Shown here piece by piece: positions 6,746 through 54,368 of a DNA stretch of 64,000 nucleotides; position 1 is the first letter of the stretch; every line of letters begins with the position of its first letter. Position numbers and translations under genes: made by a program. This DNA comes from Archangiaceae bacterium (GTDB lineage Bacteria > Myxococcota > Myxococcia > Myxococcales > Myxococcaceae), in NCBI GenBank assembly GCA_016879935.1, contig JAACJQ010000227.1:1-64000 (forward strand), given 5' to 3'. The notes under the pieces are model-generated. The model did not search any database. It was not told where the DNA came from and worked only from the letters and a program-made list of their open reading frames with translations.

Positions 6746-7798
6746 TCACTTGTCGAGCCGCGACAGCGCCCCGAGCCAGGTGATGCGCAGATCGCTTTCT
6801 TTCGAGAGTTCGCTCGCGACGAAGTCACGAATCACCGGCTGGAGCTCTGGGACGGCGAGATGCGCTCTCGTCGGGCCTTCGAAACGTGGGTGCACCAGGA
6901 GCAGGTGCATGGCGCCAACGACCCGTGAGCCGAGCTTTCGCCACCGCGCGCCGAACGCCTTCGTGAGACCGGCTTCGAGGCCCTTCACGTCGTTGCCGGT
7001 CTCGAGCGTCGCCCTGAGATTCACCCACGACGCGAGCGAGTGGGAGCGCTTCTCTGCGCGGCGCTTCGTGAGGGCAACTGAGAAGGCGATCTGGACGTCG
7101 TCGATGCTCGTCTCGAAGGCAGCCAGCGACCCCGGCACGGTCTCCCCTGCCGTCTCGGTGACGAGGGCGTGAAGTCCGGTGGGCCGTGAGATGTCTTCGC
7201 CATTGAAACGCCAGCGAAGACGGGGCGTGAGAAACGCGAGCCGACGCACGTGATCCTCGAGGTGAACGGACTCGAAGGTCTCCTTCTCGAAGATCTGTGG
7301 GTCAGGAAGCAGGCGAACCTTCGTTCCACGTCGCTCGACCGAATCGATCAACTGCAGCTGCTCGACGAGCACGCCCCGTTCGAACGCGGCGCTCCACCGA
7401 TCGCCATCTCGAGAGGTCTCGACCTCGACGCGCGCAGACACCGCGCAAGAAGGACCCAGACCCACCCCGAGGCCACTCGGCGTCGCATGAACGTGAGCTC
7501 GCTCTCCGTCTGCGGTGGGCGTGTCGTGCTGGGTCGTGAAGATCGTCTCCAGCAACGGCGTGCCATTCGCATCTCGATCAATCCTGATGCCCGCACCGTC
7601 GTCGGTCACCGTGAGCCAGCCGTCATCGAGATCGACAGAGACGGTCGTGGCGCGGCCGAGCAGGTGTTGATCGATCGCGTTGCCGATCACCTCGAGCGCG
7701 AGGTGGCGCAAGCCGGAGCCTCCAGTGCTGAAGGCCCACATGCCTGGGTGAAGCCTGACCCGAGCGAGCGACTCCGCGATGACGCGATTGGTTGCCAT
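6746..7798 (-). CDS. GyrB-like ATPase-transducer protein without TOPRIM domain, paralogue A
   Basis: The 350-residue product resembles only the N-terminal half of DNA gyrase B: a GHKL ATPase domain plus transducer. The ATPase helix reads LEVIGNAIDQ, keeping the Glu, Asn and Asp of the GyrB site. The next motif is VTDDGAGI, then a lid-like SGLGVG. The transducer has HPRFEGPTRAHL, corresponding to GyrB PKFEGQTK, with Arg replacing the lysine that contacts ATP. MYIG at the N-terminus is replaced by HPGMW. There is no TOPRIM (EGDSA) region, so it cannot cleave DNA as a topoisomerase. The start ATG lies two bases after the restored stop codon of paralogue B, showing they were once translated as neighbours. 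Function unknown; the family call is confident. Confidence 0.72.
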   Translation of the reverse strand: MATNRVIAESLARVRLHPGMWAFSTGGSGLRHLALEVIGNAIDQHLLGRATTVSVDLDDGWLTVTDDGAGIRIDRDANGTPLLETIFTTQHDTPTADGERAHVHATPSGLGVGLGPSCAVSARVEVETSRDGDRWSAAFERGVLVEQLQLIDSVERRGTKVRLLPDPQIFEKETFESVHLEDHVRRLAFLTPRLRWRFNGEDISRPTGLHALVTETAGETVPGSLAAFETSIDDVQIAFSVALTKRRAEKRSHSLASWVNLRATLETGNDVKGLEAGLTKAFGARWRKLGSRVVGAMHLLLVHPRFEGPTRAHLAVPELQPVIRDFVASELSKESDLRITWLGALSRLDK

Positions 7799-7865
7799 GG
7801 CTATCGCGAGAGCAATTGCATCCACGTGACTCGCAGGTCGCTCGCTTTCGAGAGCTGGCTCGCGA

Positions 7866-7873
7866 CGAATTCG
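7866..7873. repeat. Left inversion boundary, palindrome CGAATTCG
   Basis: This is one of a pair of identical 8-bp palindromes flanking the inverted segment. To its left the minus strand encodes the native C-terminal tail of paralogue B; to its right the plus strand encodes the internal part of the same protein. Flanking bases do not extend the match to the other copy. Confidence 0.75.
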
Positions 7874-8358
7874 GTTCCGGCCCGATCCAGAAATCCTCGC
7901 GACGCCATTCGACGCGACGGAAATCGAAGACTCGGTTCGCCAGTTTGCGTACCTGTCACCGCGCCTGACGTGGCACTTCCAGAAGCAGGATGTCTCGAGG
8001 CCTCAGGGCCTGGTCTCGTTCATCGCAGACTCAGCCAAGGGCAAGCTCGAAGCAGGTTCGACCGGACTGTTCTCGGCCGAGCTCGACGGTGTCGGAATCT
8101 CGTTCGCGGTCGGGCTCTGTCAGCGCCAGCGGTCAGAGAAGGCCCGCATGGTCTCGTCATGGGTGAACCTGACTCCGACGAGGGAGGGCGGGTCTCACGA
8201 GAAGGGCCTGCTCGAAGGACTCACAGACGCGTTCCCCGCATGGCACGAACTCGAGTCCCGGTTCATCGGAGCGGTGCACGTTCTCCTCGCCGATCCCCGC
8301 TTCGAGGGACCGACGAAGTCGAGGCTGGCCGTTCCGATGACCAGACCGCTGGTGCGCG
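7868..8358. other. Inverted DNA segment of about 491 bp inside GyrB-like paralogue B
   Basis: The segment between the two GAATTC palindromes encodes the middle of the paralogue B transducer on the plus strand, opposite to its flanks. The left junction reads GCGACGAATTCGGTTCC and the right GTGCGCGAATTCGAAGG; the shared sequence is only the 8-bp palindrome. Reversal restores an uninterrupted reading frame of exactly 345 codons with no base lost or gained, so the rearrangement was conservative. The breakpoints coincide with the recognition palindrome GAATTC, which is also how a re-ligated restriction fragment would look. Biological inversion and a cloning or assembly artefact are therefore both possible. 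Confidence 0.8.
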
Positions 8359-8364
8359 AATTCG
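8357..8364. repeat. Right inversion boundary, palindrome CGAATTCG
   Basis: Second copy of the 8-bp palindrome. To its right the minus strand carries the in-frame N-terminal half of paralogue B (ending LRIR); to its left the plus strand ends with PLVREF, which continues in the tail found beyond the left palindrome. Confidence 0.75.
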
Positions 8365-8843
8365 AAGGCCTTGCCGATCGCTCTTCCCAACGAGCTGGAG
8401 CGGCTCGACGGTGACTCCGCGAGCGAACGCGATTCGGTGGCAGAGGCCGTCTCGATGCGACTCGACCTCGAGGCGTTCCGAGAGCGCTGACACCGGAGCG
8501 AGGCCGACGCCCAATCCACTGTGAGTGACATGAACGTGGTCGCGCGGACCATCGCGCGTTGGCGTGTGGTGGAGCGAAGTGAAGACCGACTCCAGGAAGC
8601 TCAGGCCGCGGTCGTCTGTTTCGACTGAGATTCCTGGCCCGTCGTCACTCACCGTCAGCCAACCATCGTCGAGTTCCACCGAGACCGTCGTCGCGCGGTG
8701 GAGGAGAAACTGGTCGATGCTGTTGCCGATGAGTTCGAGACAGAGGTGCTGAAGGCCTCTGGGCCCGGTGTCGCCGATGTACATGCCGGGCCGCTTGCGA
8801 ACGAGATCCGGCCCATCTGGGTGCGTGTCCGCCACGCCACATT

Positions 8844-9230
8844 CTACCCGCTCAGCGGTGACTTCTTCCGCTTCACCGGCTTCGCCCACACGCCCAGCGA
8901 CGCTCCTTGCGGGTCAACGAACACGCCGATCGCGCCCATGTCTCCGATGTCCTGGAACTCCAGCACGATGGTGGCTCCGAGCTTCTTCGCCTTCGCGATC
9001 GTCTTCTTCACGTCATCGACTTCGACATACGGCAGCCACGCAGTCGGCGCTTCGGGCATCGGCTTGCGCTGCATCGCTCCGCTCGTCGCGGTCTTGCCGA
9101 GGTCGATGCCGAGATAGTCAGGCGAGCCCGGGTACGGAGCCACCTTCCACTTGAACAGCGAGCCGTAGAACTTCCGTGCGCGCGTGAGATCGTCGGTGTT
9201 GAGTTCGAGGTGAGCGAAGGGGTTCGGCAT
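8844..9230 (-). CDS. VOC (glyoxalase/bleomycin-resistance fold) family protein
   Basis: A 128-residue protein starting at an ATG preceded by GGAG at a good distance. It has the fold signature of single-domain VOC proteins: MPNPFAHLELNTDDLTRARKFYGSLFKW at the start, then WLPYVEVDDVKKTIAKAKKLGA and a C-terminal IGVFVDPQGASLGVW. These are the two beta-alpha-beta-beta-beta modules that bind a metal ion in glyoxalases and related dioxygenases and resistance proteins. Its substrate cannot be told from sequence. It sits between GyrB-like paralogues C and B, on the same strand, with 56 and 8 bases of spacing, so it is probably in the same transcript; whether it takes part in their function is unknown. 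Confidence 0.8.
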   Translation of the reverse strand: MPNPFAHLELNTDDLTRARKFYGSLFKWKVAPYPGSPDYLGIDLGKTATSGAMQRKPMPEAPTAWLPYVEVDDVKKTIAKAKKLGATIVLEFQDIGDMGAIGVFVDPQGASLGVWAKPVKRKKSPLSG

Positions 9231-9286: not shown

Positions 9287-10324
9287 TCACCCCGCAGAGA
9301 GCGCCTGAAGCCACGAAATCCGCAGGTCTGACTCCTTGCGGAGCTCGCGGGTGATGGCCGTCGACACGGCACGAAAGACGACCTCGTCCTGGAGCACGGT
9401 TCGGCTCACGCCCTCGAAGCGCGGGTGCGGCCAGCCGACGTGAATGGCGAGCACCAGTCTGCGATGCAGCGCCGCCACGTCGCCATCGAACGCCTTCGTG
9501 ATTCCGTCGACTGCGCCGCGAACGTGAGAGCCGTTGTTCGATGCGGCGAAGTTCACGAAGCCCACGCGTTTTCCTCTCGCACCCGATGCGAGCCCGGCGA
9601 CGAGCTCGAGCTGCACGCCCTCGATGGTCTCCGCGACAGTGATGATCGACCCCGGGATCATCGGCGATGGAGCAACGCTGACCGCGAGGCCGAGCAGTCC
9701 ATCGGCGTGCTGCACTGCCCTGCCCTGAAACGACCAGTGCAGCTTCGGCGTGAGCCACGCGAGCTCGTCGATTCGCGCTGCGACCGCAGAGAGATCGAGC
9801 TGCGCCGCTCCGAAGATCTGCGGATCCGGTCTGCAGCGAATGATCGTGCCGTGATCGGTGCTCGTCCCGAGTCGCGTGAGCGGTTCGACGACCTTCCCGC
9901 GAGAGAACGCGATCGCCCAGCAACCACCATCGCGGTGAGTCTCGACCTCGAGCCGCTCACTCAACGCGTTCACCACGGCAAGCCCAGCTCCCACCAGAGC
10001 GCCGGGCAGTGAGTCTGGCTGCATGTTGGTGAGCAGATCCTCAACAGGCGACCGACCGTGCTGCGACACGGGCTCGACGGCGATGCCTCTGCCGTTGTCG
10101 CGAATGCAGATGACACCACCCGCGATGTCGACCTCGATGGATTCGCCGTGCCCCCTGAGGTGCTCATCAAGGCCACATCCGACGATCTCGAACACGAGGT
10201 GTCTGAGTCCTCTTTCGTCGGTCGAGCCGATGTACATGCCCGGCCGGACTCGAACCGGCGCGACTCCCTCGATGATCTCGAGGCCCTCGGTCACGTACTC
10301 GGATTCGCCGCGTCGACTCGCCAT
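9287..10324 (-). CDS. GyrB-like ATPase-transducer protein without TOPRIM domain, paralogue C
   Basis: The first gene of the leftward cluster; its ATG at 10324 has GAAGGA upstream, and the longer frame to 10408 has no better start. The 345-residue product begins with the GyrB hallmark RVRPGMYIGSTDERG. The ATPase helix is FEIVGCGLDE, in which the Mg-coordinating Asn of GyrB is Cys. IRDNGRGI follows, then GAGLAVVNALSERLEVE, which closely matches the GyrB lid sequence. The transducer has HPRFEGVSRTVL, where the ATP-contacting Lys is Arg. With both Asn and Lys lost, ATP hydrolysis looks doubtful, although nucleotide binding may persist. It ends with the same SDLRISWLQALS tail as A and B, which is a family-specific feature. 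Confidence 0.72.
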   Translation of the reverse strand: MASRRGESEYVTEGLEIIEGVAPVRVRPGMYIGSTDERGLRHLVFEIVGCGLDEHLRGHGESIEVDIAGGVICIRDNGRGIAVEPVSQHGRSPVEDLLTNMQPDSLPGALVGAGLAVVNALSERLEVETHRDGGCWAIAFSRGKVVEPLTRLGTSTDHGTIIRCRPDPQIFGAAQLDLSAVAARIDELAWLTPKLHWSFQGRAVQHADGLLGLAVSVAPSPMIPGSIITVAETIEGVQLELVAGLASGARGKRVGFVNFAASNNGSHVRGAVDGITKAFDGDVAALHRRLVLAIHVGWPHPRFEGVSRTVLQDEVVFRAVSTAITRELRKESDLRISWLQALSAG

Positions 10325-10686
10325 GAACGAGGTCCTTCTCCCCTCACGCCTCGACACCAGGTGTCCGATGCTTGTCCCAGCGACGCAGCTTTCACCGACG
10401 CGGAGCACGTCACAGGGGAGACGCTCTGTCGAGTCGTACGGTCAACGCCCGGCCGGCAGACGTCTTCAGCGACGAGCACACCCACCCCATTGCGGGTAGC
10501 TGACGCGGCTCGCGAGCCGAGCAGGAGGGCCGCTCACGCCCGTCGTGACGCACACCACTCGCTGACCTCTCGGCGCACCTGCTCGTTCCACCGCGACCGA
10601 TCGTTCAGCACGCCGTCATCTCTCGCCTCGACGAATGAGCAGGGACAACTCAGCGGTCGAGCAGAACTCGACCCGCAGCCGCCTCA
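10325..10686. other. Intergenic region between GyrB-like paralogue C and the tgt fusion gene
   Basis: About 360 bases without a gene I can defend. An ATG overlapping the stop of the upstream gene (TGATG at 10689-10685) opens a 23-codon leftward frame ending at 10616. A one-base shift would continue it through LNDRSRWNEQVRREVSEW to a stop near 10539. This may be a small decayed coupled gene or chance in GC-rich DNA. The promoter of the GyrB-like cluster should lie in the part nearest 10324, but no clear -35/-10 pair is visible. Confidence 0.35.
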
Positions 10687-13174
<2,488 letters not shown>

Positions 13175-39971: not shown

Positions 39972-42473
39972 TCACACCATCGAGGCCGTCGCGTCGGGCC
40001 GGACCTGCAGCGCTGCGTTCTGTTTGCGGCGCTCGTCGGTGAGCTCGGCCACCTGCTCGAGAATCTGCGGGTGACTCATGATCAGCTGATCGAAGTCCTC
40101 CCGCGGCAATCGCAGGAACGACGTTCGACGCGTCGTCTTCACGGTCGCGCTGGTCGGCGAGCGCGTGAGCAACGACATCTCGCCGAACACCTGCCCTTCC
40201 TTGAGCGTCGCGACCTGGCGGCCTCCGACCACCACCGAGACCTCTCCCGTGAGCACCACATAGAGCCCGTCTGACGGCTGGCCTTCGCGAATGAGCACTT
40301 CGCCCGGCACCGCGTCACGCGCGCGGAAGCGCTGCACGAGATCGCGCCGCTCGGACTTGGTGAACGGCTTGAAGAGGGCCGCGCTGTTCATCAGGTTCGC
40401 CAGCAGGCGCTGACGACAGAACTTCTTGAGCGCGGTGGCGACGGTCGGGAACTGCGTCGAGAGATCGGTGAGCACGATCGCCGGAATCTCGAGCAACTGC
40501 GTGTCTTCCGAGGCGGCCTCGACGCTCGCGCTGCGAGGCGCATCAGAGAGCAACGCCATCTCTCCGAAGAACGCGCCCTCTTCGAGGGTGGCCAGTTCGC
40601 GAGTGGCGTCTCCGTCGGTGCGGAGCACGCGGACCTTGCCCGCGCAGATGACGAAGAAGCTCGTGCCCTGGCTGCCCTGCTCGATGATGCGATCGCCCGG
40701 CTCGGCGCGCCGCAGCGGGCAGCGCTCGAACAGCGCGATGAAGGCGTCTTCGGGCAGATCGGAGAAGAGCGGGATCTTCGGCAGCGCGCCGGGATCGGGC
40801 TTGAGATCGTCCGGAGCCTCCATGACCTCCTCGACGTTGATCTGAACGGAGGGCGAGCTGCGGGGAACGTCTGCACCGATCGCGGCTGCGGCCTCGACGG
40901 CCTGGAGCAACGAGTCGCCCTCGAGCTCGAGCTCGGTGAAGCTGGCGACGGTCGGCGCCTGACGGGGCTGTGGTGCGGGAGGGGGCGGTGCGGCGAGCGG
41001 CTTGGTGACTGGCGCGGGCTTCGGAGCGTCGACGTCGAATTGGGCAAAGACCTCGAGGCTGCGCTCGAGTTCGGTCTGTGCGGCCGTCGGCTCCACGACG
41101 GCGGTCGAGGGCGTCGCGCTCGCGGCCGGTGAGGTCGGAGCTGGAGGCGCGGGCGCCTGGAAGGCCGGCGGCAACCAGATTCGCGCGCCGCTCGGCGAAC
41201 TCTGCGGCGTCGGTGGCGATGCGGCCGGAGCGTCGGGACGGCGCGGCTTGAGGCCCGGAGGCGCTTCCGACTTCGAGGGGCTGCTGGTGAAGGGGGACGG
41301 CTCGCGCTTCCTGGTGAGCACCACCACATCGTCTTCGGGCGCGGGGTCGAGCGAGTTGGAGGACGAGGCCGCAAGCGGTGCCACGACGGCAGGCGGCGGT
41401 GCCACGACGGCAGGCGGCGGTGCCACGACGGCAGGCGGCGGTGCCACGACGGCGGGAGGCGGTGCCACGACCGCGGGAGGCGGTGCCACGACGGCGGGAG
41501 GCGGTGCCACGACGGCGGGAGGCGGTGCCACGACGGCGGGAGGCGGTGCCACGACGGCGGGCGGCGGTGCCACGACGGCGGGCGGCGCGACGGGAGGCTC
41601 CTCCACCACCTGTTCGAGGTCGACGATCGCTTCAGGCGCGGGCGGAGGTGGCGGCGCCTCATGCACCTGCTCGAGTTCGACGGTCTCGAGTGGCTCGGAG
41701 GGTGAGTCGACATCGAGCTCGTAGCTGGGTGGCCCGGCGGGAACGTCGAGTTCGTACGAGGGCGGCGGCGGCGGTGGAGCAAGTCCGATGTCCAACTCGG
41801 CTGGCAGCTCACCTGGCTTCGGAAGGTTCACCGCGGCTGGCGGATCGAGCTCGGTGCCGACGATTGGCACTTCGATCTCGCCCGAGGCGGGTTGAGACCC
41901 CAGCTCGATCTCGATGCCGTCGCTCGAGTTCAGTGGAGCCGGCGGCGGCTTCGGCTGATCGACTGCTTCGACTTCGATCGGCACCTCGATCGCATCGGCG
42001 CGGGTCGTCGGAGACGCCGGCGGCGGCGCCGCTGGAACATCGTCTTCGACCGTGATCTCGATCGCGTCGGCGCGATTGGTTGGCGACGGCTCGACGGCCT
42101 TCGCGACGGGGTCGGCCTTCGCGCCGATCGTGCGAGCCGTCGCGGGCCGGGTGGCGCCGCTCTTTCGCGCGTAGAGATCGGCCAGCATCTGCGAGATGCC
42201 CTTGTGGCCAGGGTCGAGCTCCAGCACCAGCTTCGACGCAGCGATGGCGCGCGGCAGAAAGCCGTCTTTCGCGAAGCCCTCGGCAGCGGCCTGGTAGGCG
42301 ATGATCGCCTTGTCCTTCTTGCCGCACTTCGACCAGGCGTCACCCATGCGCAGGCGGGCCTGCAGATCCTTCGGGTCTGCCTTGCAATACGCCTCGTAGG
42401 TCTCGGCCGACTTGGCGAACTTGCCCTTCGAGAAGAGCTCGGTGGCCTTGTCCTTCAGCTCACGCGGATCCAT
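39972..42473 (-). CDS. TPR protein with Pro-rich repeat linker and two cyclic-nucleotide-binding domains
   Basis: The 833-residue protein has TPR-like helices at 1-100, a long acidic/Pro-rich disordered region, including ten tandem VVAPPPA units at about 295-365, and two CNB domains at about 565-690 and 690-815. The first has the full phosphate-binding cassette (FFGEMALLSDAPRSASV, with the phosphate-contacting Arg). The second has VFGEMSLLTRSPTSATV, where that Arg is Thr, so it may not bind nucleotide. No enzymatic domain follows, suggesting a scaffold that responds to cAMP or cGMP. It is coupled to the HEAT gene upstream (TAATG overlap). Confidence 0.82.
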   Translation of the reverse strand: MDPRELKDKATELFSKGKFAKSAETYEAYCKADPKDLQARLRMGDAWSKCGKKDKAIIAYQAAAEGFAKDGFLPRAIAASKLVLELDPGHKGISQMLADLYARKSGATRPATARTIGAKADPVAKAVEPSPTNRADAIEITVEDDVPAAPPPASPTTRADAIEVPIEVEAVDQPKPPPAPLNSSDGIEIELGSQPASGEIEVPIVGTELDPPAAVNLPKPGELPAELDIGLAPPPPPPSYELDVPAGPPSYELDVDSPSEPLETVELEQVHEAPPPPPAPEAIVDLEQVVEEPPVAPPAVVAPPPAVVAPPPAVVAPPPAVVAPPPAVVAPPPAVVAPPPAVVAPPPAVVAPPPAVVAPPPAVVAPLAASSSNSLDPAPEDDVVVLTRKREPSPFTSSPSKSEAPPGLKPRRPDAPAASPPTPQSSPSGARIWLPPAFQAPAPPAPTSPAASATPSTAVVEPTAAQTELERSLEVFAQFDVDAPKPAPVTKPLAAPPPPAPQPRQAPTVASFTELELEGDSLLQAVEAAAAIGADVPRSSPSVQINVEEVMEAPDDLKPDPGALPKIPLFSDLPEDAFIALFERCPLRRAEPGDRIIEQGSQGTSFFVICAGKVRVLRTDGDATRELATLEEGAFFGEMALLSDAPRSASVEAASEDTQLLEIPAIVLTDLSTQFPTVATALKKFCRQRLLANLMNSAALFKPFTKSERRDLVQRFRARDAVPGEVLIREGQPSDGLYVVLTGEVSVVVGGRQVATLKEGQVFGEMSLLTRSPTSATVKTTRRTSFLRLPREDFDQLIMSHPQILEQVAELTDERRKQNAALQVRPDATASMV
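41380..41590. repeat. 21-bp tandem repeat encoding VVAPPPA
   Basis: About ten direct copies of a 21-base unit (GGCGGTGCCACGACGGCGGGA-type on the plus strand), differing at a few positions. Units stay in frame, so length changes of the linker would not break the gene. Slippage between copies is likely to make it variable between strains. Confidence 0.85.
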
Positions 42474-44590
42474 TACTTCGCGCCCTCGGCTGGAGGAGAC
42501 ACCTTCGAGACGGCCGTCGACGCCGCTTCGCGGACGCGGAGCGAGTAGTCACCCTTCAGCGCGTCGAGGCTCTCGAGCTGGGACTTCGCGCCTTCGCCCT
42601 GAAGCGCGAGCGCGTCGGCGGCGGCCGCGCGAACCCCCGAAGAGTCGCTGAAGAGTTCGCGCCCGAGGGCAGCCACCGCCTCGGGTGACTTCACCTTGCC
42701 GATCGAGGCGATCAGCTCGCGTCGGCCGACGACCGTGTCCTGCCTGAGCAGCTCGGCGATCGCGCCCACCGACTCGGGAGCCTGCAGCTCGGCGAGAATC
42801 GCTGCTGCGGTCGAGCCATCGGCGCCGCCCTCTTTCACCAACGCCAACAGAATCGGAGCAGCGGTGGGCGGCAATGGCTGAGAGCGCAACGGCTCAACGA
42901 GCCGCGACCGATCACCGACGAGCTGAGCGATCGCCTCGAGCACCGCGACGCGCCCCTCGTTCGACGTCTCAGCCAGTGCCTGCGCGGCGGCGGCCTGCAC
43001 CGAACGTTCGGCATCGAGCAGCGCGACCTTCACCACGCCGACGGTCTCGGGCCCGAGCATCGCGAGGCCTGCGTAGGCGGCAGCGCGCAGCGTGGGCGAC
43101 TGCTCTTCGGTGAACGGCTCGATCTTCGCGCGGGCTCCGTCGACCTTGAGGCGGCCGAGCGCCCGAAGCAGCGCGCCCATCAGCTGGTACTGCTCCTCGG
43201 TGCCGTCATCGACGATCTCGCGCGGAGGACGAGCCTGGAGCGGTACCTTGCCGCGCTCCTTGAGCCGCTGCGCATCGAGCGCCTGCACGCGCTTGAGCAT
43301 CTCCGAGGTGCGCGCTTTCGAGACGCGGTTGAAGGCATCGTGCTCGGGTGGTGCCTCGTCAGGGTTGAAGCCGGGGGCGTACTTGAGGGCGAGATCGGCC
43401 GGAATCCAGTCGGCGCGAAGGGGCTCGATCGCTTTGAGCTCGGCCTCGAACGCCTTGATCACCGCGCCGGCGCTCGCGGGGTCGCGCAGCTCGGCCAGCG
43501 TGTCGACGGCGAGTCGGCGCGTGAGGGGATCGTTCGACGTGAGGAGCGGCGTCACTTTCGCCGCGTGCTCCTTGAAGGCGGGCCCGAGCGCGATGAAGGC
43601 GCGCAGCGCGGGGTTCGGAGAGCCCGTCTTCAGCTTCTCGAGGAGCGGTTCAGCTGGGCACCCACCACGCTGACGCAGCTCTTTGCCCGCCGCGTCGACC
43701 TCGGGCCCACCACCACTCGCGACCACGTCACACAGTGCCTTGTTCGTCTCGGGGCCCGCGGGCAACGCGATGATCGCCCGGGTCGCCAACGGGCTCGACG
43801 GGCTGCCCTCGAGGGCCACGGCCGTCAGCTTGGGGAGCGCGCTCGGATCTTTCAGGCGTGACAGCGCTTCGCAGGCCGCTTCGCGCAGCTCGGGAAAGTT
43901 CTCGTCGAGCAGCGCGGTGAGCGCCGGCACTGCGCGAACGTCGCGAGCCGAGCCCAGCCCACGCGCGGCCGCCGCCGCGAGCACCACCTGCTTGTCCTTC
44001 AGCAGGGGCACGAGGCGATTCACGGCCTCCGGTCGACCGGAGCGGCCGAGCTCCTCCGCGGCCCCCACCCGCTCGGGCAAGGCGCCGTCTTGCAGGGCCT
44101 TCAGGTTCTGCTCCCAGATCGAGTTCGCCTCGGCGGCGACACAGCTGGCCATCGCCCCGGGCACGTTCGCGCTCTTGAGGCCTTCGACGATCACCAGCCG
44201 CGTGCTGCGCCCTCGCCGCGAGTACTGCAGCGTGAGGTACCCGCGCGCCTTGTCGTTGCGAATCACCGCCAGGGAACGGGCTGCAGCCGCCTGAACGTCT
44301 TCGTCGGGGTCACCAAGCGCCTCACCGAGCAAGTCGACCACCCGCGGGTCGGCGCTCTTGCCGAGCGCGCCCATCGCCTCGGCGCGCACCATGCCCACGG
44401 GGTCTCTCGCGGCCTGGGTGAAGAGCGGCAGATCGTCGGCATCGAACTTCTCGGCGAGCTTCTTCACTGCGATGGCGCGCTCGTCGGGGCGCGGGCTCTG
44501 CAGCTGCGCGAGCCACTTGTCGCGGCCACCCGAGCACGCCGCCAGCCACACGATCGAGGAGAGGCAGATGAACCGGGCCGACATGCCCAT
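42473..44590 (-). CDS. HEAT-repeat lipoprotein
   Basis: A 705-residue lipoprotein from the ATG at 44590 (GGAG seven bases upstream; signal ending VWLAAC). The mature protein consists of HEAT/PBS-lyase-type repeats of about 31 residues with recurrent D-(D/E)-A-A-A and A-A-x-A-L patterns, such as DPDEDVQAAAARSLAVI, DERAIAVKKLAEKF and LAETSNEGRVAVLEAI. Such solenoids bind proteins; here the location is the periplasmic side of a membrane. It sits between rluB and the cyclic-nucleotide protein, overlapping the latter's start codon. Partner unknown. Confidence 0.85.
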   Translation of the reverse strand: MGMSARFICLSSIVWLAACSGGRDKWLAQLQSPRPDERAIAVKKLAEKFDADDLPLFTQAARDPVGMVRAEAMGALGKSADPRVVDLLGEALGDPDEDVQAAAARSLAVIRNDKARGYLTLQYSRRGRSTRLVIVEGLKSANVPGAMASCVAAEANSIWEQNLKALQDGALPERVGAAEELGRSGRPEAVNRLVPLLKDKQVVLAAAAARGLGSARDVRAVPALTALLDENFPELREAACEALSRLKDPSALPKLTAVALEGSPSSPLATRAIIALPAGPETNKALCDVVASGGGPEVDAAGKELRQRGGCPAEPLLEKLKTGSPNPALRAFIALGPAFKEHAAKVTPLLTSNDPLTRRLAVDTLAELRDPASAGAVIKAFEAELKAIEPLRADWIPADLALKYAPGFNPDEAPPEHDAFNRVSKARTSEMLKRVQALDAQRLKERGKVPLQARPPREIVDDGTEEQYQLMGALLRALGRLKVDGARAKIEPFTEEQSPTLRAAAYAGLAMLGPETVGVVKVALLDAERSVQAAAAQALAETSNEGRVAVLEAIAQLVGDRSRLVEPLRSQPLPPTAAPILLALVKEGGADGSTAAAILAELQAPESVGAIAELLRQDTVVGRRELIASIGKVKSPEAVAALGRELFSDSSGVRAAAADALALQGEGAKSQLESLDALKGDYSLRVREAASTAVSKVSPPAEGAK

Positions 44591-51223: not shown

Positions 51224-52669
51224 GTGCTCCGTCTCGTGATCCTGCTCCTCCCCACCGCGGCCAGCGCGCAGCTGCTGCTCGAGGAGCCATTCGACACCTC
51301 ACCTGCCGATGGCGGGTGGACGGCGATCGCTCAGCCCGTCGGTGGGTTCGCCGATCTGACCATGGGAAAGGTCGCCAGTGGCTGGCGCGTCACGCACCCT
51401 GACGCGGGCCTGGGGCTGGCCAATCGATCGCCCTGCTTTCGCAGAGCCTTCGACGGCGGCGTCGGCGCCGTCACGGTTCGCTACTGGCTGAACGCGTCGA
51501 GCGTGAACGACGAGTTCGGCATGTACCCCGTCATCATTCAGTCGCCGGCCAACACCCTCGCCGAAGTTCGGTTCGCCGGAATGCCGATGAGCTCGTTCAC
51601 GCCGGTCCTCCAGTGCACTGACGCCACAGGGACCTTTCGCGTGTGCAGCGGCGGCACCAGCCCGGTGCTGAGCTCTCAGACGTGGCACCTGGTCGAGCTG
51701 CGCATGGATGGCGTCGGCTCCGGCCAGGGGCTCTGTCGTGCCGCCGTCGACGGCACCGAGTTCTGCAGTCAGCCGATGAATTGGACGGGGCTCCAGCCGA
51801 CCAGCGCGTTCATCGGGCTCTGCGCACTCCAGCAGGCATGGGCGGGAGCCATGACGATGGACGAGCTGCGGGTCGTCGCTGGCCCGCAGGGATCGCGGCT
51901 TCGGATCAACGGCCCTCACTCAGGCACGCAGGGTGACTGCCTTCGCTTCACCATCGACACCATCGACGCGTTCACCCAGCAGCCAGCCCCCGTCGCCGCC
52001 CACACGCCGCTCGACACTGTCGCGTTCACGGGGGCTGCCGCGTTCTTCGCCAGCGACTGCTCCACCCTGGGGTCGCCACCCGAGCTTTCTCCAGCCGCTC
52101 CCGTCTGGGAGGTCTACGCGAGGGCTGGAACGATCGACATCCGCATCACCGCGACAGCGAGCGACCTGCTTCCTGCGATTCCGTTCAGCGTGCACATCAC
52201 ACCAGTCGATGCGGGTGTACCGGACGCGGGAGCGCTCGATGCGGGCACGCTCGACGCCGGCGCACTTGATGCGGGAGCGCTCGACGCGGGAGCACTCGAC
52301 GCGGGAGCACTCGACGCGGGAGCACTCGACGCGGGAGCACTCGACGCGGGAGCACTCGACGCAGGAGCACTCGACGCGGGATCGCTCGACGCGGGATCGC
52401 TCGACGCAGGAGCACTCGACGCAGGAGCGCCCGACGCGGGCACACTCGACGCGGGCACAGTCGACGCGGGAGCACTCGACGCAGGAGCACTCGACGCAGG
52501 AGCACTCGACGCAGGAGCACTAGACGCAGGAGCAGTCGACGCGGGCGCACTCGACGCAGGGGGCACTCCTGTCCTCATCACCTACGACGTCGGCTGCGGC
52601 TGCACGGGGGCTCCGCTGCTCAACCTCATCGCCGCGATCGCCCTGCTCTTCCGCCGTTCACGTCGCTGA
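51224..52669 (+). CDS. Secreted protein with LDAG repeat linker and MYXO-CTERM-type tail
   Basis: The 481-residue protein starts at GTG 51224 with a signal peptide (LRLVILLLPTAASA, cut before QLLLEEPF). Residues 20-220 look like a concanavalin/LamG-type beta sandwich (EPFDTSPADGGWTAI; WHLVELRMDGVGSG). A second domain follows, then about 24 tandem five-residue units (x-L-D-A-G) at residues 328-447. The end, DVGCGCTGAPLLNLIAAIALLFRRSRR-like (GCGC, hydrophobic stretch, Arg tail), is of the MYXO-CTERM sorting pattern. The last 12 bases overlap the stop end of the convergent recombinase gene. A surface-anchored binding protein is inferred. Confidence 0.78.
   Translation: MLRLVILLLPTAASAQLLLEEPFDTSPADGGWTAIAQPVGGFADLTMGKVASGWRVTHPDAGLGLANRSPCFRRAFDGGVGAVTVRYWLNASSVNDEFGMYPVIIQSPANTLAEVRFAGMPMSSFTPVLQCTDATGTFRVCSGGTSPVLSSQTWHLVELRMDGVGSGQGLCRAAVDGTEFCSQPMNWTGLQPTSAFIGLCALQQAWAGAMTMDELRVVAGPQGSRLRINGPHSGTQGDCLRFTIDTIDAFTQQPAPVAAHTPLDTVAFTGAAAFFASDCSTLGSPPELSPAAPVWEVYARAGTIDIRITATASDLLPAIPFSVHITPVDAGVPDAGALDAGTLDAGALDAGALDAGALDAGALDAGALDAGALDAGALDAGALDAGSLDAGSLDAGALDAGAPDAGTLDAGTVDAGALDAGALDAGALDAGALDAGAVDAGALDAGGTPVLITYDVGCGCTGAPLLNLIAAIALLFRRSRR
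52206..52563. repeat. 15-bp tandem repeat encoding (A/S/T)LDAG
   Basis: About 24 copies of GCACTCGACGCGGGA-type units, in frame in the preceding gene. Several consecutive copies are identical at the DNA level, indicating recent expansion by slippage or unequal exchange. The repeated unit has the same length, 15 bases, as the repeat in the RCC1 lipoprotein nearby. Confidence 0.9.
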
Positions 52670-53590
52670 GGGAGGCCGCTTGGCCTTCGAGCGCGGGTGG
52701 TGCTTGTCGTACGTCGTGCGAAGCCGCTGGCTGTCGACGTGCGTGTAGATCTGCGTCGTCGCGAGATCGGCGTGGCCCAGCATCGCCTGCACCGCGCGTA
52801 GATCGGCACCGCGCTCGACGAGGTGGGTGGCGAACGAGTGCCGCAGCTTGTGCGGAGACAACTCCTTCGTGATGCCGGCCGTGCGCGCGTGCCGACGCAG
52901 CAGCTTCCAGAACCCCATTCGCGAGAAGCCTTTGCCCCTTGGCGTCACGAAGAGCGCCGACGACTCGCGCCCCTTGAGAATCGTCGGCCGCGCCGACGCG
53001 ACGTACGCTCGCACGTGCTCGATGGCGTGACGCCCGAGAGGAACGATGCGCTCCTTGCGGCCCTTGCCCATCACCATCACGTAGCCGTCGACCAGGTTCA
53101 CGTCGTTGATGCCGAGCTTCACCAACTCGCTCACGCGCAGGCCCGTCGCGTAGAGCACCTCGATCATCGCGCGATCGCGCAGGCCGGCCGCCGCCGACGT
53201 GTCAGGCGCCTTCAGCAGCGCCTCGACCTCGTCGAGCGTGAGAAAGATGGGCAACTTCCGCGCGTGCTTCGGCGTGTCGAGATCGTCGGTCGGGTTGCCC
53301 GGTGACAACTTCTCGTCTTCGAGGAACCGGTGAAACCCGCGCAGCGCGGCGAGGTGCCGGGCCCGACTGCGTGGCGCGAGCCCCTTCCGACTCAGCCACG
53401 CCAGGTGTTCGAGCACGTCGTCGCGCGTCGCTGCTTCGACGGCGATCTTCCGGCGCGTGAGTTCACCCAGCCAGTCACGCACGTCCATCGCGTAGGCGTC
53501 GACCGTCTTGGGCGCGAGGTTCCGCTCCGCACGAAGGAAGGTGACGAAGGCATCGAGCAGCGCGTCGCTCACGAGGTGATTCTCCAGCAT
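52658..53590 (-). CDS. xerD: Tyrosine recombinase of the XerC/XerD type
   Basis: From the ATG at 53590 the 310-residue protein has a SAM-like N-terminal DNA-binding domain (LLDAFVTFLRAERNLAPKTVDAY) and a complete catalytic domain. Active-site residues are Arg152 (ATGLRVSEL), Lys176, His247 and Arg250 (SPHKLRHSFATHL), His273 (LGHADLATTQIYTHV) and Tyr282. Length and pattern fit the housekeeping Xer recombinases that resolve chromosome dimers at dif, rather than integrases of mobile elements. Whether it is XerC or XerD is not certain. The longer frame to 54076 has no support and would run under a divergent gene. Confidence 0.88.
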   Translation of the reverse strand: MLENHLVSDALLDAFVTFLRAERNLAPKTVDAYAMDVRDWLGELTRRKIAVEAATRDDVLEHLAWLSRKGLAPRSRARHLAALRGFHRFLEDEKLSPGNPTDDLDTPKHARKLPIFLTLDEVEALLKAPDTSAAAGLRDRAMIEVLYATGLRVSELVKLGINDVNLVDGYVMVMGKGRKERIVPLGRHAIEHVRAYVASARPTILKGRESSALFVTPRGKGFSRMGFWKLLRRHARTAGITKELSPHKLRHSFATHLVERGADLRAVQAMLGHADLATTQIYTHVDSQRLRTTYDKHHPRSKAKRPPSAT

Positions 53591-53678
53591 TCGTGCCAGT
53601 CGCCAAACAACCTGCCGAAAAGGAACTGCGCTCGGCCCTGCGGTGCTCCACGGCCGCAAGAAACTCCCGGAGGAACTC

Positions 53679-54368
53679 ATGCGCTTCGCACTCTTCTCCC
53701 TCATCCTCGTCAGCGTCCCCGCGCTTGCCGACGAACTCGCCACGCCACCTGCTCCGCCAGCGACCGTCGCTTCCGTCACCCCACCCACCTGGTCTCTCGG
53801 CGCAGGGCTGACCTTCTTCGCGCCCACGACGCAGCTGATCGGGGTGCTCGGGGGAACGGGGGGACTCTCGGCGTTGGCGACGACGACCCCGGTCAGCCCG
53901 AGCGTCTCGATCGAACGGCTGTTCTCACCACAGTTCGCGCTCGGACTCGGCCTCGACGCATCGCTCGAGTCGACCAGCCTCACGGGCATCGCGGCCACGA
54001 GCCCGCGCGGATCGGTCGGCGTCGGCGTCAGCCCCCGCTTCATCGTGACGAACCCCGACGCGCCGGTCTCGTTCACCCTCTACTCGACGCTGTTCCTCGG
54101 CTACGCGAGCGGCGGGCAGGCCGTCGTCGGTGCGGTGGGCAACGCGTTGACCTCGGCGGTGTCGGGTGGCGTCGGCGGCGGCATCGCGCTCGAGCTCAAG
54201 CTGCTCGAACGGCTCTCGGTGCGAGCCCAGGCGAACCTGGTGCGACTGACGGTCTCGCGCTCCACGATCGCCGTCTCGAGCGGCGGAGCCACCAGCGAAT
54301 CGGTCTTGAACACGGTCGGCGTGAACGTGCTGCCCACGCCATCGCTCGAGTTGCGGCTCTACCTCTGA
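53679..54368 (+). CDS. Predicted outer-membrane beta-barrel protein
   Basis: A 229-residue protein with an excellent AGGAGG ribosome site and a signal peptide (MRFALFSLILVSVPALA). After a Pro/Thr-rich stretch come alternating amphipathic strands rich in Gly, Ser and aromatic-ended turns (WSLGAGLTFFAP; FALGLGLDASLESTSL; GIALELKLLERLSVRAQAN), with the terminal strand ending LELRLYL. This is the usual look of eight-stranded outer-membrane barrels. No finer identity can be given. It is divergent from the recombinase and converges on a methyltransferase with four bases between. Confidence 0.7.
   Translation: MRFALFSLILVSVPALADELATPPAPPATVASVTPPTWSLGAGLTFFAPTTQLIGVLGGTGGLSALATTTPVSPSVSIERLFSPQFALGLGLDASLESTSLTGIAATSPRGSVGVGVSPRFIVTNPDAPVSFTLYSTLFLGYASGGQAVVGAVGNALTSAVSGGVGGGIALELKLLERLSVRAQANLVRLTVSRSTIAVSSGGATSESVLNTVGVNVLPTPSLELRLYL

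Follow-up and report, generated by a model that had tools for sequence, protein, structure and literature searches.

Site-specific recombination promoted in vivo by EcoRI was reported by Chang and Cohen in 1977 (cited in PMC13076061), and an inversion between short inverted repeats that is independent of a recombinase was reported for E. coli by Schofield et al. in 1992 (cited in PMC4272514). In yeast, template switching inverts the spacers of inverted repeats, and the study in question saw this only where the arms exceeded 9 bp and the spacer was no longer than a few bases (PMC8604942). Finally, inversions that have their limits inside genes, the intragenic invertons, were described by Chanin et al. 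in 2024 (cited in PMC11868660).

Here we consider a window of 64,000 nucleotides (positions 1 to 64,000 of contig JAACJQ010000227.1 of an Archangiaceae bacterium), in which a short GyrB-like gene is split by an inversion between two copies of the palindrome CGAATTCG. As in the recombination promoted by EcoRI, so far as the citing article describes it, the rearrangement ends at GAATTC with zero base loss; different from it, we appear to be dealing with a single event in a draft genome in which no EcoRI-type enzyme was found. The case of Schofield et al. resembles the present one in that a segment is inverted between short inverted repeats without a recombinase, a likeness that is drawn from the title of that work and not from its repeat length, whereas the repeats here are of 8 bp and palindromic. 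The locus also shares with the intragenic invertons, as they are presented where cited, that the inversion limits lie inside coding sequence and that the protein is altered. Invertons are, however, defined by reversibility and mixed orientations, whereas here we have one orientation from one genome, a very short repeat and no dedicated recombinase nearby. Our reading, to which we assign a probability of roughly two in three, is that a one-off, balanced micro-inversion of 491 bp between 8-bp palindromes disrupted one of three clustered truncated-GyrB paralogues. Being natural, balanced and delimited precisely by the site of a type II restriction enzyme, such an inversion would allow one to ask cleanly whether chromosomes in nature are rearranged by cutting and rejoining of the restriction type.

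The broken gene and its palindromic limits

Codon-usage scoring, which makes no use of homology, shows that the coding strand changes from minus to plus and back to minus at the two palindromes (Table 1), and CGAATTCG has no further copy within the window. The GyrB-like ATPase domain starts on the minus strand at about position 8835 and is interrupted at the first palindrome that it meets, and the gene resumes on the minus strand for its final 21 codons and its stop. Reversal of the segment between the palindromes restores a single minus-strand open reading frame of 362 residues when counted from position 8889, or of 344 amino acids plus stop (345 codons) when counted from the GTG at 8835. The inversion is balanced, as the length is unchanged and no base is lost, and both of its limits lie in GAATTC. 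This bears out the initial annotation, which had proposed a GyrB-like gene split by an exact 491-bp inversion at 8-bp palindromes, with 345 codons back in frame on reversal and without loss of a base. Its strand layout also holds as to the minus, plus, minus pattern and needs correction as to the start of the plus-strand part, which lies earlier, at FRPDPEILATPFDATEIEDSVRQFAYLSPRL before TWHFQ, and runs through PLVREF. Shuffled sequence leads one to expect about two copies of CGAATTCG per 64 kb, and the sites by themselves therefore mean nothing. What cannot be put down to chance is the location of the two strand breaks, each precisely inside CGAATTCG, together with two junctions that are in frame after flipping.

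Table 1. Features of the split gene and its neighbouring paralogues (window coordinates)
Feature	Position	Strand	Basis or remark
5' portion of the split gene, coding for the GHKL ATPase domain, original orientation	8365..8835	-	frame open to 8889, true start uncertain
CGAATTCG palindrome, junction of 5' part and inverted piece	8357..8364		sequence match
Inverted 491-bp piece, end of ATPase domain and most of transducer domain, FRPDPEIL...PLVREF	7870..8360	+	true ends anywhere within both palindromes
CGAATTCG palindrome, junction of inverted piece and 3' tail	7866..7873		sequence match
3' tail, VASQLSKASDLRVTWMQLLSR, stop 7803-7801, original orientation	7801..7865	-	restored ORF
Paralogue A, intact truncated GyrB, immediately downstream of the broken gene	6746..7798	-	domains and alignment
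Paralogue C, intact truncated GyrB, upstream past a glyoxalase-like gene	9287..10408	-	domains and alignment

The restored protein contains the domains HATPase_c (PF02518, E 2e-9) and DNA_gyraseB (PF00204, E 1e-10), and a domain search of the restored frame found no TOPRIM part. It thus has the layout of a short truncated GyrB, in which a GHKL ATPase domain is followed by the GyrB transducer domain. In sequence comparisons it matches structures of GyrB and ParE over their N-terminal part. A further match is PDB 3cwv ('DNA gyrase, B subunit, truncated'; E 9e-10), which like the restored protein comprises the N-terminal part of GyrB only; different from 3cwv, the gene studied here is broken by an inversion, and the match to 3cwv is weaker than those to full GyrB N-terminal fragments. 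As the initial annotation had it, the restored protein matches its neighbours throughout, aligning end to end with both paralogue A (52% identity) and paralogue C (37%). All three clustered short GyrB-like genes lie on the minus strand between 6746 and 10408, the broken one being the second and the glyoxalase-like gene lying between the second and the third. The restored stop is located two bases ahead of the ATG of paralogue A, as expected of genes of one operon. In its present state the broken gene would specify a truncated ATPase domain followed by a junk tail and is presumably inactive. As a single event in a paralogue that looks nonessential, the inversion would have little further consequence.

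Orientation in relatives and the possibility of a switch

An intact, uninverted homologue of 358 amino acids is present in a genome of the same genus (G003); it shows 59% identity to the restored protein over an end-to-end alignment, and GAATTC is absent from the 4 kb of DNA around it. Comparable short proteins were found in G004, G006, G018 and G021. Across the GyrB-family matches in 60 relatives, the window locus is the sole place for which parts of a single gene on opposite strands were reported.

Could the segment then be a live phase-variation switch, that is, an intragenic inverton that toggles the gene between on and off? Since both sites are still identical, the segment could in principle be flipped back, and the restored frame is open. 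Then again, the segment is bounded inside the gene by inverted repeats whose identity is exactly 8 bp: in the 60 bp around each junction, compared in both senses, the 26 bp on either side are unrelated. The position of the actual break is thus fixed only to within these 8 bp. The junctions therefore do not look like an invertase site, a reading that this comparison led us to reject. The recombinases Hin and Gin act on sites of about 26 bp, from which an identity of 8 bp is far removed. Moreover, neither a dedicated invertase near the inversion nor a repeat of more than 8 bp with extended homology was found at the locus. The genome was found to contain two large serine and three tyrosine recombinases, none of which adjoins the inversion, and the only one found on the window contig is XerD (52658-54076), about 44 kb away. 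The putative role of the gene would likewise give no hint of phase variation, and the same inversion has been reported in no relative.

We therefore regard a live switch as very improbable. The initial annotation, which had offered a DNA switch as one possible cause, rightly judged the 8-bp repeat to be short for an invertase site. As to the check that it proposed for a serine invertase elsewhere in the genome, the two large serine recombinases found are not next to the inversion. Nor does the comparison of orientation with related genomes lend the switch support: in 59 relatives, no homologue with parts on both strands was reported. Very improbable, too, would be a living inversion system that switches the gene on and off by acting on nothing more than the 8-bp palindrome, with an enzyme that cuts GAATTC perhaps serving as the recombinase.

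Occurrence in the genome and the possibility of an artefact

The draft assembly comprises 9.53 Mb in 445 contigs, which are not ordered by length and none of which, among those fetched, is shorter than about 3 kb; judged by this fragmentation, contig order and minimum size, it is probably a metagenome bin. In 2.2 Mb sampled from this genome there are 73 pairs of GAATTC sites less than 5 kb apart, and one of them, the pair in the window, gains coding continuity at both junctions when the intervening segment is flipped (score 10.8, as compared to 3.9 for the next-best pair). None of the other 72 restores a frame at both junctions. A tblastn search in which 1,384 predicted proteins were run on these 2.2 Mb, and in which one protein had to be matched by adjacent pieces on opposite strands, revealed no second gene split across strands, and it did detect the window locus by way of both paralogues; such a search can detect only genes that have a relative inside the sample. 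Finally, 38 of the 42 scorable coding GAATTC sites, namely those flanked by clear coding to the left and right, keep strand and frame, a rate equal to that of control hexamers. From this read-through, and from the lack of any other flipped pair or split gene in the sample, it follows that there was no general EcoRI cutting and re-ligation of the sample and that such inversions do not abound in the genome.

A scan by codon usage for further inversions at 6-bp palindromes and 8-bp inverted repeats is noisy at GC-rich palindromes, and its top candidates, among them a ketoacyl-synthase-like ORF in L092, were dismissed as each proved to be an intact gene already on one strand. The true case escaped a stricter, full-ORF form of the scan on account of its short 3' tail of 65 bp. 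A false candidate also drew attention to a large minus-strand ORF in the window (39972-42548) with a long run of TTAGGGATxA-like repeats, part of which, when read inverted, translates as repeated TTAGGGA residues.

These results bear on the possibility that the living gene is intact and that an EcoRI fragment was re-ligated backwards during library preparation, or that the assembly is in error. Such an artefact would be in line with junctions that are exact EcoRI sites, with the fragmented state of what is probably a metagenome bin, and with the restored gene being free of stops and frameshifts. A wholesale form of the library effect that the initial annotation had entertained is disfavoured by the in-frame read-through at the control rate, and the lack of another flipped GAATTC pair among the 73 also speaks against an artefact. 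Moreover, ambiguity in the assembly should not by itself flip a piece that is bounded by a repeat of 8 bp, as this is far below usual assembly k-mers. We consider an artefact unlikely. The case also serves as a warning that small inversions can cause gene callers to split genes of draft genomes into several unrelated short ORFs.

Routes to the inversion and its age

Of the causes that the initial annotation had offered, a one-off micro-inversion at a short palindrome fits best, the case being unique among the 73 pairs and in the scan of 2.2 Mb. We infer that the event took place in the cell, and only once, and two mechanisms are candidates for it. In the first, an EcoRI-type nuclease present in the cell, whether resident, plasmid-borne or incoming, would have made sticky-end cuts at both GAATTC sites, after which the fragment would have been rejoined backwards by the host ligase. 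In the second, illegitimate recombination or template switching of a polymerase would have led to strand exchange within the identical 8 bp, without involvement of a site-specific nuclease. By either route a single balanced inversion between the two copies of the palindrome would have broken the gene.

An identical palindromic 6-bp site at both breakpoints and the loss of nothing are what ligation of cohesive ends predicts. In addition, among 33,621 pairs of 8-bp inverted repeats 300-700 bp apart in 1.3 Mb, palindromes account for 826 (2.5%), and the sole palindromic pair with GAATTC is that of the window. Were every short inverted repeat open to use, only about 1 event in 40 would thus involve a palindrome, and palindromic breakpoints therefore favour cutting at sticky ends and rejoining. 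But is there an enzyme to make the cuts? In the draft, which is 95% complete, the EcoRI_methylase family (PF13651) has no match, with a positive control; the EcoRI endonuclease family (PF02963) has no match either, yet here the control was likewise silent. The search covered these two EcoRI families. Two N6/N4 methylases were found, the stronger of which resembles CcrM, whose target we take to be GANTC. Neither is GAATTC avoided: its 590 sites in 9.53 Mb correspond to 62 per Mb, which is within the range of the genus (18-66 per Mb). For the GAATTC restriction system that had been envisaged, this leaves a methylase result that is negative and an endonuclease result that decides nothing, at a site that is not depleted. 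The failure to find a suitable enzyme, together with the fact that 8 bp are shared where 6 would suffice, counts against cutting and rejoining, as does the lack of a further inverted GAATTC fragment among the 73 pairs. The action of EcoRI in vivo was reportedly seen in a laboratory setting. On balance we find this first route doubtful.

For exchange between the repeats there are precedents in the inversion of Schofield et al. (1992; cited in PMC4272514), as far as its title conveys, and in template switching in yeast, although the arms of 8 bp and the spacer of 483 bp found here lie outside the range in which spacers were inverted in yeast (PMC8604942). Nor does this route explain why the arms are palindromic. 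We nevertheless give it slightly more weight, since it calls for nothing that is missing from the genome, and hold it, tentatively, to be possible.

The initial annotation took the inversion to be recent or still reversible, which is not established. The restored frame is free of stops and frameshifts, and the inverted part retains its conserved residues and has a third-position GC of 0.78, a value typical of coding sequence, all of which argues against long neutral decay. On the other hand, the inverted part has undergone more amino-acid change: measured against G003 and paralogue A, the branch of the broken gene has a length of 0.40 substitutions per site for the inverted part versus 0.13 for the N-terminal part, whereas the other two branches are even between the two parts, and the sign was the same in all 2,000 bootstraps. 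This roughly threefold branch length, which is confined to the lineage of the broken gene, would not by itself be explained by a very recent event. Selection may have been relaxed, be it before the inversion or after it, or the N-terminal half may have undergone gene conversion between the neighbours. A recent origin of the inversion is thus plausible but unproven.

Elsewhere in the window, a minus-strand ORF of 713 amino acids (10687-12828) is predicted to encode a fusion of tRNA-guanine(34) transglycosylase with a methyltransferase domain of the MnmC2 type, the latter with a score under the curated cut-off; enzymes of both types act at the wobble position 34 of tRNA. On the plus strand, an ORF at 51224-52669 contains a long run of LDAG residue repeats, which is followed by a C-terminal tail resembling a membrane anchor.
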